A stretch of DNA of 64,000 nucleotides from Methylophilus sp. 14. Its GTDB lineage: Bacteria > Pseudomonadota > Gammaproteobacteria > Burkholderiales > Methylophilaceae. A program made the translations under genes and the position numbers. The stretch spans positions 402,856 to 466,855 of the forward strand of contig NZ_JADKYS010000003.1 of the NCBI RefSeq assembly GCF_015354345.1, given 5' to 3'. The notes under the pieces are model-generated. The model was not told the origin of the DNA, ran no database searches, and saw only the letters and a list, made by a program, of their open reading frames with translations. Of the stretch, positions 761 to 8,418 are shown piece by piece. How positions within the stretch are numbered: the stretch's first letter is position 1; each line of letters opens with the position of its first letter.

Positions 761-845
761 GCCCAGATGGCGAAATTGGTAGACGCGCTAGTTTCAGGTA
801 CTAGTGTTTAACGACGTGGAGGTTCGAGTCCTCTTCTGGGCACCA
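761..845 (+). tRNA. tRNA-Leu (anticodon CAG)
   Basis: An 85-base cloverleaf with encoded CCA. The acceptor GCCCAGA pairs with TCTGGGC. The D-arm carries GGTAGACGC. The anticodon arm CTAGT-TTCAGGT-ACTAG gives anticodon CAG. A long variable arm, as expected for tRNA-Leu, precedes the T-arm with GGTTCGAGTCC. It is divergent from rnr. No integrase or repeated 3' tRNA end was seen beside it. Confidence 0.95.
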
Positions 846-1385
846 TCAAGCAGCTTTTCAGCTGCGCCAAATCTAGATTCCCAAGCACTCAATTTGTTTC
901 GTTTTTGAATAATTGCTTTTGCTTCTTGTTGAATCATCATGGTCACAGTTTAACATCTTTCATGTTTGAGGCTGATTAAACTTTAACTCTACTGCAAACA
1001 CACATTGCACAGACCTCGGTGTCTTCTTCGTGCTGACTATCTATCACGCCTGTAACACATATCGGCAAATGACCTTTGTCACAAATACGCCCACGCTTTA
1101 ACCACGCTTTCTAGCATGACTCGATGCCAATCAATTTGATCTTTTTAGCCATCGCGTGAAATGCAGATATTCATAGCCCTCCAAAATTAACTTGTATTAA
1201 TTTAAGTTTATATTTAACATTAATTAACACTTTGAATAAGCATCGAAGTGGGTCCCGTCAGCAGTGCACTCATTTAATCAGGCGCAAATGACGTTTCAAG
1301 GTAATTCAGGGCGCAATCACAACCGTGGCGAAACACTAAAACGGTCAGCAAACTGAGTTCATGTTAACTTTTGAAGAGGTAAAAT
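846..1385. other. AT-rich non-coding stretch between tRNA-Leu and a small peptide gene
   Basis: No convincing gene of more than 50 codons was found here. On the minus strand a 48-codon frame runs from ATG at 940 into the tRNA gene (stop at 794). It looks amphipathic but has no good ribosome site, so it may be a relic. The section 1180-1240 is very AT-rich and may hold the promoter of the peptide gene at 1386. No clear -35/-10 pair could be chosen. Confidence 0.5.
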
Positions 1386-1628
1386 ATGGCTATCAATCAG
1401 CTTTCCCAACCTGAAATACAAACCATTTCTGGCGGCTCACAGTTTTTCCCAGGCTATCCGTACAACCCATTTGTCATGGGCAGCGTATTTAGCGTTTTTA
1501 ATCAACCCGGCATTAACTATGGGCCAATCTCATGGTACAACCCAGGTTGTGCACCAGCACCAAGCCCATGCACGCCTCCCCCACCGCCACCATGTGGGTC
1601 ATGCTCACCAAGCAATCATGACCACTAA
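1386..1628 (+). CDS. Small peptide with double-glycine leader (bacteriocin/RiPP-precursor-like)
   Basis: An 80-residue protein whose first 17 residues end in LSQPEIQTISGG. This matches the double-glycine leader pattern LSxxE[L/I]xxIxGG that is cut by C39 peptidase-containing ABC transporters. The predicted 63-residue mature part is aromatic and Gly/Pro-rich at first, then carries four Cys in a proline-rich tail (a run of six Pro) and ends SNHDH. The ribosome site GAGGT lies five bases before ATG. No maturation enzyme, immunity gene or C39 transporter is in the window. A strong palindromic terminator follows at 1732-1760. The leader match is direct; a bacteriocin, pheromone or metal-binding exported peptide is inference. 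The core was not recognised. Confidence 0.6.
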   Translation: MAINQLSQPEIQTISGGSQFFPGYPYNPFVMGSVFSVFNQPGINYGPISWYNPGCAPAPSPCTPPPPPPCGSCSPSNHDH

Positions 1629-1791: not shown

Positions 1792-2745
1792 CTACAGGCG
1801 ACGGCGTGAAAGCCCCATGAGCGCACCCAAGCCTAGCAGCATCATTAAGGAGGAAGAAGCTTCTGGCACCGGCGTGACAGTGGCTGATGCATAAGAATGC
1901 CCAACGGTAATGCACAAATCGGTCGTGGCTGAAAGATTAGCAAGCCCTAACAAGCCTAATGAATTTATGCCAATCTCGTCCAGCGTAATTTGCAGGGCAT
2001 TGGTTTCCACAGCACAACTAAATGTTGCGCCATTGCAGTTACTGGCCACGATACCATCGGCCCAATACTTACTCTCGTTGGCGAACACTGAAGCGCGGCC
2101 CAACGGTCCCAAATCCAGATAGACACCACCTGTAGCCGCCGCTGCCAGATCAATCGAATGGCCTAAAATACTCAGGTTGGCGCCGACAAAAGTGCTGTTA
2201 CCACTGGCTGTAAACAAGCCTGAGCTTTCATTCACCGTCACGGTTGAAGTGGAGTCGATGAGATCGGCCTGCAATGCCAACGCTGTTGATACACTCACAT
2301 TCAGATGCTCAACACTGCCGGTGCCAATAGCGCTGTTGGAGCCAGGCACAGGATTGTTTTCAAGATATGCGCCAGAACCTGAAAATGTGGCAGAGCCCAC
2401 TTGGGTTGGCGTCAGTAGTGCCAGGATAGGATTCAAGCTGGATAACACGCCTGTGCCGGTCCCACTGGCGCTCAAGCCAAGATTCAGTGTTGAGTTTGTT
2501 TGCCTTGGAATCGGCGTACCCGCACTCGCTACGCTGATGTCACCGAGCGCAGTAGGCGTTTTAACTTCAACCGATGCAGTGCCTACGGTGACTGAGCCAA
2601 GCAATTTTGCGTTCACCTGGGCACTTAAATCCAGGTACAAACCATAACCATCTGCAGCATCAGCGCTGACCTTGACTGCTGCGGCTGAAGCAACATTACT
2701 AAAAGCAAATAAAATGGCTGATGCCATCAGGGAATGCTTTATCAT
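1792..2745 (-). CDS. PEP-CTERM sorting-domain exported protein
   Basis: A 317-residue protein with an N-terminal signal peptide (basic start, hydrophobic run, AAA cleavage region) and a C-terminal PEP-CTERM signal at residues 293-317: VPE, then a hydrophobic helix, then SRRRL. Such proteins are recognised by the exosortase EpsH/XrtA and are usually linked to exopolysaccharide or biofilm. The middle is Ser/Thr/Gly/Ala-rich and likely beta-structured, with no enzyme motif. The start is at ATG 2745 because AGGAG lies seven bases upstream; an upstream in-frame start at 2763 lacks a site. No exosortase gene was seen in the window. The specific role is unknown. Confidence 0.85.
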   Translation of the reverse strand: MIKHSLMASAILFAFSNVASAAAVKVSADAADGYGLYLDLSAQVNAKLLGSVTVGTASVEVKTPTALGDISVASAGTPIPRQTNSTLNLGLSASGTGTGVLSSLNPILALLTPTQVGSATFSGSGAYLENNPVPGSNSAIGTGSVEHLNVSVSTALALQADLIDSTSTVTVNESSGLFTASGNSTFVGANLSILGHSIDLAAAATGGVYLDLGPLGRASVFANESKYWADGIVASNCNGATFSCAVETNALQITLDEIGINSLGLLGLANLSATTDLCITVGHSYASATVTPVPEASSSLMMLLGLGALMGLSRRRL

Positions 2746-3236
2746 CAATACTCTCCTAAACAAAAATAAAAATAAACGTCAATACAAATATTAACATTTG
2801 TTTGAACTATTGTTTACATTTTTTATCAAAAATCAGAGGATTAAATGCTCTGGTGTTGATGAACACCACAAATACCTGGTTAGCCCCCTTAAACTGAGAC
2901 TGATTGATCTGTCATGAGCAAACGCTTAGGTGACAGAGCAACCAGTGACAGCATATGGCGAATGAGGGTTAAAAAGTGTCTATATCCCCCCCTTAACAAC
3001 ACACCACGCGAGCAATTGACCAAGCCAAAGTTGTAGATGAAAAAACAAGCATGCTATGTTGACAATGTTGTAAAAATACGGGCATTGAGTCAAGCTTACG
3101 CGCGAAGGTCAAAAAACGCACATCTGATTAAAACGATTGATATTCAGTGACTTAGCATTTTTACCAAGACCCAATCCACTGGGTTATCCACAGATTTTGT
3201 GGACACGCGCGGGCATTGTCATCATACAAAAAACAT
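2746..3236. other. Gene-poor intergenic stretch with one DnaA-box-like hairpin
   Basis: No open frame here has a ribosome site. The region upstream of the PEP-CTERM gene is AT-rich and must hold its promoter. At 3184-3192 there is a TTATCCACA sequence (DnaA-box consensus) that overlaps an inverted repeat TCCACA-N5-TGTGGA (3187-3203). A single box does not make an origin. Confidence 0.4.
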
Positions 3237-5785: not shown

Positions 5786-6778
5786 CTAAGCAAACATTTT
5801 TTTGTATTGCAATAATAACTGCTCCAGCTGTAACTCCTGATTGAGTGGATGCTGTGCCGTTATTCTAAAACGATTTAACTGTTGTTGAAACGCCAGTAAG
5901 CGCGACATATTGACCGCACCGGCCAAAGCCTGCAATGGGGCGGCCTCACTGGGATGATACCGCAATGGCTGCTGATGGCTGGATAGCCAGACATCCAGCA
6001 ACCATTTCTGCAACACCTGGATGGCCTGCTCCATGCCCTGCTTGATCAGCACCGGCACCGCGGCGGCAACGTCTATGCTTGCCCCGCCTGCCAGGTGCGG
6101 ACGGAATTGCTGGTACCAGGCATGCCAGTCAAACTCATCCTGCTGTATGGTAGTGGGCGCTCCGCCGCTGTAATGCCAGACCCATTCCGGGTTGGCCACA
6201 GACTGGGTTTGTAACCACTGCAAGCCCTGCTCTCGGCTGGGCACTGGCATTTCCACCTGCATGCAGCGGCTTAAAATCGTGGGTAACAAAGCCTGGCGCT
6301 GGTGCGACACCAGTAAAAACTGGGTACGCTGCGGCGGCTCTTCCAGGAGTTTTAGTAACGCATTGGAGGCCGCCACATTCATCGCTTCCAGTGGATGAAT
6401 CAGCACCACACGAATACCATCCACGCGATGCGACGTCAGCGATAAATAGTCATGCAAGGCGCGAATCTGGTCGATAAGGATTTGCTGGCGTTTGCGTGTC
6501 TTTTTCTTGCCACTCTCTGCGCTGTCGTCATCCTCGGGCGTGATTTCCCTGAAATCGGGATGCGCACCTTCTGCTAACCAGTGGCAGGACTCGCACTCAC
6601 CGCAGGCAAAACCCTGTTGTGGCCGCAAACACAGCAAGGCCGCGGCCATCGTCTGCGCAAAATGCAATTTGCCGATGCCGGTTTTACCATGCAGCAACAA
6701 GGCATGATGGCGCGTCTCTCCCGCTTGCATCCAGTGCGAGAATAGCGACTCTTGCCAGGGATAAATCTTATTAATCAT
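5786..6778 (-). CDS. holB: DNA polymerase III subunit delta' (clamp loader)
   Basis: A 330-residue AAA+ clamp-loader subunit. A P-loop-like HGKTGIGKLHF lies near residue 30. Four Cys in the zinc module (LLCLRP...ACGECESCHW) follow, then the LLKLLEEPP and SRCMQ sensor motifs of the delta' family. Within the polymerase III holoenzyme it opens and loads the beta clamp. The ATG overlaps the tmk stop (ATGA), so the two are translationally coupled. The order tmk-holB-pilZ-tatD is the standard proteobacterial one. Confidence 0.93.
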   Translation of the reverse strand: MINKIYPWQESLFSHWMQAGETRHHALLLHGKTGIGKLHFAQTMAAALLCLRPQQGFACGECESCHWLAEGAHPDFREITPEDDDSAESGKKKTRKRQQILIDQIRALHDYLSLTSHRVDGIRVVLIHPLEAMNVAASNALLKLLEEPPQRTQFLLVSHQRQALLPTILSRCMQVEMPVPSREQGLQWLQTQSVANPEWVWHYSGGAPTTIQQDEFDWHAWYQQFRPHLAGGASIDVAAAVPVLIKQGMEQAIQVLQKWLLDVWLSSHQQPLRYHPSEAAPLQALAGAVNMSRLLAFQQQLNRFRITAQHPLNQELQLEQLLLQYKKMFA

Positions 6779-7380
6779 ATGGATGAAATGATTTCTTCAA
6801 CTGACTTCTTCACTTCTTCAAGTGAGCGATGGGCATCAATCACGCGGAACCGTTGCGGAAACTCAGCCGCCCTGGCCAGGTATTGCGCACGTAATCGGGC
6901 AAAAAATTCTGCGCCTTGCGCTTCAAATTTGTCTGGCGTCCGTGCCCCAGCCAGGCGCTGTAAACTCACCTCGACTGGCACATCAAATAACAAAGTGATA
7001 TCCGGTTGCAAACTGCCCTGCACCCACTGCTCTAATTGCTGCATCTTGTGTAAAGGCAGACCTCGTGCACCACACTGATAAGCATAAGAGGCATCAGTGA
7101 AACGGTCTGAGACCACAATCGCGTCGCGCTGCAATGCGGGCAAAATCACTTGCTGCAGATGCTCGGCACGCGCAGCAAACATCAGCAAAGACTCCGTTTC
7201 CACATGCATTTCCCTGTGCAACAGGATTTCACGCAACTCCTCGCCCAAAAGCGTGCCACCTGGCTCACGTGTAGAGACTATTTCACGGCCACGGCTGGCC
7301 AGCATTTGCAGTATGGTCGGAATATGCGTGCTTTTGCCCGCACCATCCATGCCTTCCAGCGTAATAAACAAGCCCGCCAT
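6775..7380 (-). CDS. tmk: Thymidylate kinase
   Basis: A 201-residue kinase converting dTMP to dTDP. It shows the P-loop EGMDGAGKST, the DR motif (VVSDRFTDASYAYQ) and TREPGGT for substrate binding. Length is typical. It lies between mltG and holB, overlapping holB by four bases, and 30 bases separate it from mltG. Confidence 0.95.
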   Translation of the reverse strand: MAGLFITLEGMDGAGKSTHIPTILQMLASRGREIVSTREPGGTLLGEELREILLHREMHVETESLLMFAARAEHLQQVILPALQRDAIVVSDRFTDASYAYQCGARGLPLHKMQQLEQWVQGSLQPDITLLFDVPVEVSLQRLAGARTPDKFEAQGAEFFARLRAQYLARAAEFPQRFRVIDAHRSLEEVKKSVEEIISSI

Positions 7381-7410
7381 TATTCAAGGTTCCCCATATG
7401 TATATGATGT

Positions 7411-8418
7411 TTAGTGTTTTTTTAACTGATAGGCGCGCACGGCCTGGTTATGCGCCTCTAGCGAGCTGGTAAACACATGCCTGCCCTGACCGTTAGCTAC
7501 AAAATATAGCGCATTGGTTTTGGCCGGATGCAAGGCGGCTTGTATCGATGCCAGCCCTGGCAACGCAATCGGCGTAGGCGGCAAGCCACTACGTGTATAG
7601 GTGTTGTAAGGCGTATCAGTGAGCAGGTCTTTTTTAGTGATATTGCCCTGGTAACGCGTGCCCATGCCGTAAATCACAGTAGGATCCGTCTGCAAACGCA
7701 TGCCTTTACGCAGGCGGTTAATGAACACACCGGCAATTTGCGGGCGCTCTTCTTCCACCCCGGTTTCTTTTTCGACGATGGAGGCCATCACCAGCGCCTC
7801 GTACATGGAGCGATAAGGCAAGCCAGTATCACGCGTCTCCCAGGCGGCAGACAAATGCTGGGCCATTTTCTGGTAAGCCCGTTTATACAAGTCGGCATCA
7901 CTGCTCTGCGCATCCAGAAAATAAGTATCCGGAAAAAACCAGCCCTCTGGATGTATGGGTTGCCCACTCACTTGCTGCATCAACTCACTATCAGACAGCA
8001 TCAGGGTGTCATGACGGATGCCAGGCATTTGCGCCAGCTTTTGCCTAAAGTCAGCAAATGTCTTGCCTTCGATTAATTGCAGCTTAAACTGGTCAAATGT
8101 GCCGTGTTTGAGGATGTCGATGAGCGACATCACCTGCAGTGGCGTATTCAAAGCATAATCACCGGCTTGTAATTGACTGCCACTACCTGTCAGTTTCACC
8201 GTGAGCAAAAAGCTATACGGCTCCGTCAGCACGCCTGCGGCGACCAGTTGATCGGCAATGCCGCGCACGCTGGCCCCGGCCGGAATCTGTAAACCGATGG
8301 TTTCTGATGCCATGGGCAATGGCCTGATCATGAAAATCACCACCCACACTGCCAATGCCACCGCGCCCAGCATCAGCGCGGCGACACCGTATTTCACACA
8401 CTGCTTAATGAACAACAT
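7411..8418 (-). CDS. mltG: Endolytic murein transglycosylase MltG (YceG)
   Basis: A 335-residue inner-membrane lytic transglycosylase that cuts nascent peptidoglycan glycan strands. It has one N-terminal membrane helix (residues 9-31), a LysM-like region (IPAGASVRGIADQL), and the YceG core with SIVEKETG, whose Glu at 216/218 fits the catalytic position, followed by NRLRKGMRLQTDPTVIYGMG. It starts inside the 3' end of pabC (14-base overlap), so both are coupled. Confidence 0.93.
   Translation of the reverse strand: MLFIKQCVKYGVAALMLGAVALAVWVVIFMIRPLPMASETIGLQIPAGASVRGIADQLVAAGVLTEPYSFLLTVKLTGSGSQLQAGDYALNTPLQVMSLIDILKHGTFDQFKLQLIEGKTFADFRQKLAQMPGIRHDTLMLSDSELMQQVSGQPIHPEGWFFPDTYFLDAQSSDADLYKRAYQKMAQHLSAAWETRDTGLPYRSMYEALVMASIVEKETGVEEERPQIAGVFINRLRKGMRLQTDPTVIYGMGTRYQGNITKKDLLTDTPYNTYTRSGLPPTPIALPGLASIQAALHPAKTNALYFVANGQGRHVFTSSLEAHNQAVRAYQLKKH

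Follow-up and report, generated by a model that had tools for sequence, protein, structure and literature searches.

The double-glycine (GG) leader follows the consensus LSxxE[L/I]xxIxGG; C39 exporters carry signals in other bacteria, and the prochlorosins illustrate that dispersed precursors can use one common exporter. Among the systems closest to the peptide described here, which we call P1, are the class II microcins of the microcin V type, whose reported components are a precursor, an immunity gene, a PCAT, an MFP and TolC (PMC9746304) and whose GG leader pattern is that of P1. As these reports have it, microcin exporters generally pair with one specific peptide in nature, although under laboratory conditions that of microcin V proves promiscuous (PMC10231218), while an exporter common to two microcins is known for two pairs (PMC9746304). 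Synechococcus elongatus EbfG1-4 are likewise described as several GG peptides without known homologues, for whose efficient secretion the C39 transporter PteB is needed and whose role lies in biofilm, not killing (PMC4997328, PMC9981879); the ebfG genes form one operon, whereas the P1-type cargos are dispersed, and the likeness drawn here is one of description. The Neisseria Nap island is reported to encode several bacteriocin-like GG peptides devoid of antimicrobial activity, short and cationic, whose genes lie together with those of a C39 peptidase and a FapF-like channel and with an immunity-like gene (PMC11798529), in contrast to the dispersed cargos and distant C39-ABC operon of Methylophilus. 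Because GG peptides act in biofilm in Synechococcus and are non-antimicrobial in Neisseria, a GG leader alone does not mean bacteriocin. Our literature search found no paper joining Methylophilus with double-glycine leaders, and the papers on Methylophilus and microcins concern other matters, judged by their titles and abstract openings. The export principle is already known; the variant in Methylophilus is a dispersed cargo set without nearby immunity genes, together with the pairing of P1 with a PEP-CTERM gene.

P1 lies at 1386-1628 on the forward strand of the window, by which we mean the whole 64-kb stretch analysed here, taken from the 3.0-Mb genome (G000) of a methanol-consuming Methylophilus. 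Its frame opens with ATG and encodes 80 residues, 63 of which remain past Gly17. The leader (MAINQLSQPEIQTISGG, 1386-1436), identified by translation and leader profiles, fits the consensus at all positions (L6, S7, E10, I11, I14, G16 and G17) and is followed, in the predicted mature peptide, by an aromatic/Asn/Gly core (1437-1547; present in 5 of 6 aligned copies) and a Pro-rich tail (CAPAPSPCTPPPPPPCGSCSPSNHDH, 1548-1625; comparable in 4 of 6), whose cysteines, C55, C62, C70 and C73, are spaced CX6CX7CX2C and precede a His/Asp end, NHDH. A good ribosome-binding site, GAAGAGG (1373-1379, forward strand), was read six bases 5' of the ATG; among the P1 copies this site is AGAGGT or AAAGGT in five of six and AGAGAT in the first copy of G013. 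The coordinates, frame, length, leader with Gly-Gly at 16-17, ribosome site and Cys tail are thus as a preliminary description of the locus had given them. The mature form is computed at 63 residues and 6712 Da, with a pI of 5.9 and a charge of -1.4, and is 25% Pro and 16% aromatic, with neither Lys nor Arg. These values bear on the idea that P1 drives self-lysis in the manner of the Neisseria Nap peptides, for which the precedent is that several of those GG peptides do not kill competitors; the Naps, however, are described as cationic peptides of 16-36 residues with a pI of 9-10 (PMC11798529), which P1 resembles neither in length nor in pI nor in its want of Lys and Arg, and we regard self-lysis as very improbable. 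P1 matched no Pfam or NCBIfam family at E<=10, and no relatives were found in plasmids and phages (E<=0.1) or viral contigs; a search of named genomes returned two loci, both Methylophilus. Two solved structures that matched P1 (E 0.32 and 0.71) were taken as chance, and AlphaFold gave no usable model (mean pLDDT 50.7).

Relatives of P1 occur in 4 of 22 Methylophilus genomes (G000, G007, G009 and G013) when 101 genomes are searched, and a profile search of 187 family genomes recovered the same four. Outside the genus, six weak matches (G029, G038 and G072, and from the profile search G135, G184 and G226) were discarded because they all failed to reach the leader and four of them contained stop codons. 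Between the P1 of the source genome and its nearest tailed relative, the tailed copy of G013, the 53 codons of leader and core show dN 0.075 and dS 1.34 (dN/dS about 0.06), with 6 differences at first, 3 at second and 21 at third codon positions, and dN for this region was well under dS in all 10 pairs computed, dS values near or above 1 being unreliable. For the tail, the one pair computed gave dN 0.11 and dS 3.6. Judged by its sequence, P1 is a real gene whose frame is conserved in three other species and which bears the mark of purifying selection.

The copies differ in how they are assembled. G007 and G013 each carry two in tandem, the first consisting of leader and core without the Cys tail and the second tailed; in the second copy of G007 most of the core is lost and a Gly/His spacer gained, giving six His in the mature form, while the tail of G009 contains five Cys, with one Pro fewer. 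Since core and tail of G007 are carried by different copies, the modules are able to reside on separate chains. If P1 were a secreted metal-binding peptide, metallophore-like or metal-buffering, its Cys/His/Asp tail and, in relatives, the Gly-His spacer could supply the ligands, and such a role would draw on the Cys tail with NHDH end in four of six copies, on the six His of the second G007 copy and on the dN and dS of the one tail pair, as well as on genes that we read beyond the PEP-CTERM gene of G013, one outer-membrane-efflux-like and two forming a two-component pair. We nevertheless find it improbable: two genomes have tail-less copies, paired Cys outside the cell are more likely to form disulphides, and a reading of the initial 8 kb of the window showed no metal transporter, so that none is a constant neighbour of P1 across the four species.

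In all four genomes P1 sits between rnr/tRNA-Leu and a PEP-CTERM gene. The upstream border is tRNA-Leu(CAG) (761-845, forward strand, in the window and in relatives), accompanied by an rnr-like gene. An A+T-rich element with TTAAC boxes (1183-1232, forward strand) is conserved 5' of five of six P1 copies and holds a weak sigma-70-like match at 1187-1214, although promoter-like sites in the promoter scan were not in excess over shuffles (4 vs 4.4). On the other side, a palindromic hairpin with A/T flanks (1733-1760), read from the sequence, separates P1 from the PEP-CTERM gene and is likely a two-way terminator; a similar hairpin occurs in G013 and G009, the G007 version is split by an insertion, and the window's hairpin is absent from the output of the terminator scan, which demands a loop of 3-8. 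The insertion in G007 (locus L015, about 6492-7939) is an insertion-sequence-like element with inverted ends by eye, lying outside the reading frames of the second P1 copy and of the PEP-CTERM gene. In G009 alone among the four P1 species, an EamA-type permease-like gene with a His-rich end, recognised by eye, lies between tRNA-Leu and P1 (locus L014, about 6492-7553, reverse strand). Gene content at 846-1791 of the window and at the same site in relatives varies from one Methylophilus species to another, in the manner of a variable insertion site.

The PEP-CTERM surface-protein gene (1792-2763, reverse strand, convergent to P1), assigned by its sorting-motif match, gave matches at E<=1e-8 in four of the 22 Methylophilus genomes, precisely the carriers of P1, and adjoins P1 each time, with the insertion separating the two in G007. 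The region upstream of rnr, surveyed in 16 further genomes of the genus (tRNA-Leu in 15 of them), held neither P1 nor this PEP-CTERM gene; in this survey the stretches of G006 and G015 end early at contig ends, G005 and G018 have no rnr match, and the G008 locus holds a 27-residue PEP-CTERM-like match. AlphaFold gave no usable model of the PEP-CTERM protein (mean pLDDT 32.6). PEP-CTERM proteins have been tied to exopolysaccharide (PMC1569441), and in Aquincola the PEP-CTERM protein PepA is reported to affect flocs, not biofilm (PMC9850573); the neighbour of P1 has the sorting motif of such proteins, whereas P1 itself is no PEP-CTERM protein. Because P1 is strictly paired with this gene, a surface or matrix role suggests itself, one that was absent from the functions listed in the preliminary description (antimicrobial, signal or metal-binding peptide). 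We tentatively propose, while holding it short of probable, that P1 is an extracellular or surface/matrix peptide working with the adjacent PEP-CTERM protein and not a killing peptide; its aromatic core might then serve self-association, and its Cys/Pro/His tail cross-linking or binding. In favour of this we count the pairing, the want of a further well-conserved ORF beside P1, the absence of Lys and Arg with a charge of -1.4, and the separate chains for core and tail in G007. The pairing concerns one linked site in few related genomes, and linkage alone could therefore explain it; the reported action of PepA on flocs and not on biofilm also counts against the proposal.

The exporter lies elsewhere. 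The source genome contains a single C39 domain (PF03412, E<=1), with E 1.1e-36, on a different contig (C10) from the window, and the same search found none in the 64 kb; the preliminary description had noted the absence from the window and placed the exporter elsewhere or shared, and the genome search that it proposed for a C39-peptidase ABC transporter thus returned one. The domain belongs to a 707-residue peptidase-ABC protein encoded between genes for an HlyD-type adaptor and an outer-membrane efflux (TolC-type) protein, and downstream of this run lies a gene for a Gly/Leu-rich GG peptide of 77 residues. The exporter genes passed Pfam cut-offs, and NCBIfam cut-offs were not reached among the matches listed. 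Beyond a porin-like gene upstream of the exporter genes, we noticed by eye a second protein with a PEP-CTERM-like end (G000, L011:5050-5616).

Across the genus, strong C39 domains (>125 bits) are found in 8 of 22 genomes, that of G006 being read as two fragments (66 and 53 bits). All eight retain intact the positions of the Cys, His and Asp that we take to be the catalytic residues of the Methylophilus domain (G006 again as two fragments), and all eight carry the same exporter block with its linked GG peptide, the block spanning two contigs in G006. The C39 catalytic triad serves as a criterion in PMC9746304. Twenty of the 29 C39 rows were weak (20-37 bits) and were not taken as exporters, though 15 of 22 genomes pass the family cut-off; 14 of these 20 loci were set against the C39 domain of the exporter itself and reached a best E of 1.8. 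Thirteen exporter-less genomes were examined at this locus: in three (G021, G014 and G004) the flanking porin and lipoprotein genes adjoin, as at an empty site, and in the remaining ten neither the porin nor exporter parts were found within the short locus covered.

Leader profiles extend the set of candidate cargos. Profile A3 was built from 12 leaders, solely of P1 and the exporter-linked peptides, and A4 from 13; P1 is a row of both, and profile rows match by construction. A3 recovered 11 further peptides at E<=0.1, every one in an exporter genome, and at E 0.9-2.4 gave short chance-like matches also in five exporter-less genomes. The further families are pep3 (MAMHELNAVEVDVVSGG...), pep4/pep5 (MRELT..EV...SGG...) and pep6. 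With A4, 30 matches were obtained at E<=0.5, of which 29 (E<=6.4e-5) fall in all eight exporter genomes (five each in G000 and G013, six in G007, four each in G009 and G020, two each in G003 and G006, and one in G002); the remaining match, in G007 at E 0.49, falls within a frame of 3882 codons and was put down to chance. None of the 14 exporter-less genus genomes gave a match at E<=0.5, and none of the other 165 family genomes did at E<=0.01, leaving 8 of 187 in total. Leader conservation, to which the preliminary description had tied its reading, accordingly extends to three other species for P1 in frame and to the eight exporter genomes, and those only among the 22 of the genus, for the leader type.

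If kinship is ignored, the one-sided chance of 8 of 8 against 0 of 14 is 3e-6, and that for P1 alone (4 of 8 exporter genomes, four others having the exporter without P1, against 0 of 14) is 0.0096. The rnr tree, which covers 20 of 22 genomes, requires four changes for the exporter and two for P1, with only two supported independent pairs, and once kinship is counted the co-occurrence of leader and exporter is modest and phylogenetically weak. Its clearest case is that of the sisters G003, which has the exporter and two GG peptides, and G004, which has an empty site and none.

The source genome encodes five GG-leader peptides, P1 included, at four places. As five peptides in that genome have the leader type and all 29 matches in the genus fall in exporter genomes, P1 is probably one of several dispersed cargos; the word orphan, used of it in the preliminary description, holds for the window and fails for the genome, which has both the same-leader peptides and a C39 exporter. 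We consider it likely, on these sequence comparisons, that P1 is cut and exported by this single C39-ABC transporter and that the transporter is shared. The C39 peptidase would cleave the leader after Gly17, and the cleaved peptide would leave the cell in one step through the HlyD-type adaptor and the TolC-type outer-membrane channel, to be released as a product of 63 residues and 6.7 kDa, probably with two disulphides; the exporter, on its distant contig, would also serve at least four other dispersed GG peptides. Five natural cargos, encoded at four places, thus seem to share a single exporter, and no immunity gene was found beside those examined; the native cargo range of such exporters is therefore directly testable in a methylotroph.

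The same leader and exporter fit class II microcins equally well, since Methylophilus too has a C39-ABC protein with active-site residues, an HlyD-type adaptor and a TolC-type channel. One could therefore envision P1 as a class II microcin-like antibacterial that kills relatives, with microcin-V-type export, a C-terminal disulphide recognition tail and an immunity gene that is unrecognised or unlinked. Besides the match of exporter parts and leader type (components as given in PMC9746304), this reading gains from the report that cysteines in the C-terminal domain mark class IIa (PMC13174018), from the patchy distribution of P1 and the divergence of its tandem copies, and from the other cargos, which are Gly-rich (14-30% Gly), hydrophobic (GRAVY 1.0-1.5) and 51-68 residues long, and of which six were scanned, two giving weak matches to Pfam Bacteriocin_IIc below its cut-off (E 0.13 and 0.25); none of the other cargos is cationic. 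The Methylophilus cargo genes differ from the microcins in standing at four places with no immunity gene found nearby, and P1 differs in having no family match in Pfam or NCBIfam. Besides the P1 frame, no separate well-conserved ORF of 30 or more residues exists between tRNA-Leu and the PEP-CTERM gene: the other weakly matching ORFs near P1 mostly overlap it in other frames, and a 30-residue ORF at 1264, which shows 44% over 25 residues in two genomes, falls within the conserved upstream element. By reading, none was seen beside pep3, pep4 and pep5 in the source genome either, where the neighbours are housekeeping genes. The lipoprotein gene beside the exporter-linked peptide (C-type-lysozyme-inhibitor-like, E 0.0015, below cut-off) was rejected as immunity because it occurs in 21 of 22 genomes, whether or not the exporter is there, and is thus not cognate. 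An antimicrobial role becomes less likely because no immunity gene was found adjoining P1, although one may lie farther away, and the division of core and tail over two chains in G007 is unsuited to a toxin-plus-uptake design. We therefore weakly favour the surface or matrix role over a class II microcin, which we judge possible but doubtful.

More speculatively still, and as an unlikely whole, one microcin-type exporter might serve, in place of a bacteriocin, a set of dispersed, jointly controlled peptides that build the cell surface or adjust it, within which P1 and the PEP-CTERM gene would form a two-gene matrix module: a C39-exported, disulphide-bonded Cys/Pro peptide and an exosortase-sorted protein would assemble outside the cell, core and tail being able to act on separate chains. 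If the pairing is functional, it would link two routes of secretion that tend to be studied separately.

Upstream sequences offer a hint of common control. In the 250 bp preceding the GG peptides of the source genome, TTAAC/GTTAA boxes exceed shuffles at P1, pep3 and pep5, weakly at pep2 (37 of 500 shuffles reach the count) and not at pep4 (304 of 500), and number 19 in all against 5.4 expected (0 of 500 shuffles), for a motif chosen after looking; they may represent common control of the peptide genes. A promoter pattern, TTAACTTGTTT...TTAATTTNAGTT, was rejected as a common regulon, as it occurs in only 2 of 22 genomes, both times upstream of the exporter-linked peptide, and therefore defines none. 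Shared control through these boxes, post hoc as the motif is, together with the reported transport of signals by C39 exporters in other bacteria (PMC7595303), would suit a density or peptide signal sensed by sister cells. A reading of the initial 8 kb of the window, though, showed no sensor kinase or receptor, so that none is a constant neighbour of P1 across the four species; mature forms of 41-68 residues are also long for such signals, and we think it improbable that P1 is one. Lastly, pep4 and pep5 (G000, L125:3543-4153) are tandem GG peptides with similar mature parts that look like a two-peptide pair, and this site has two GG matches each in G007 and G020 and one each in G009 and G013.
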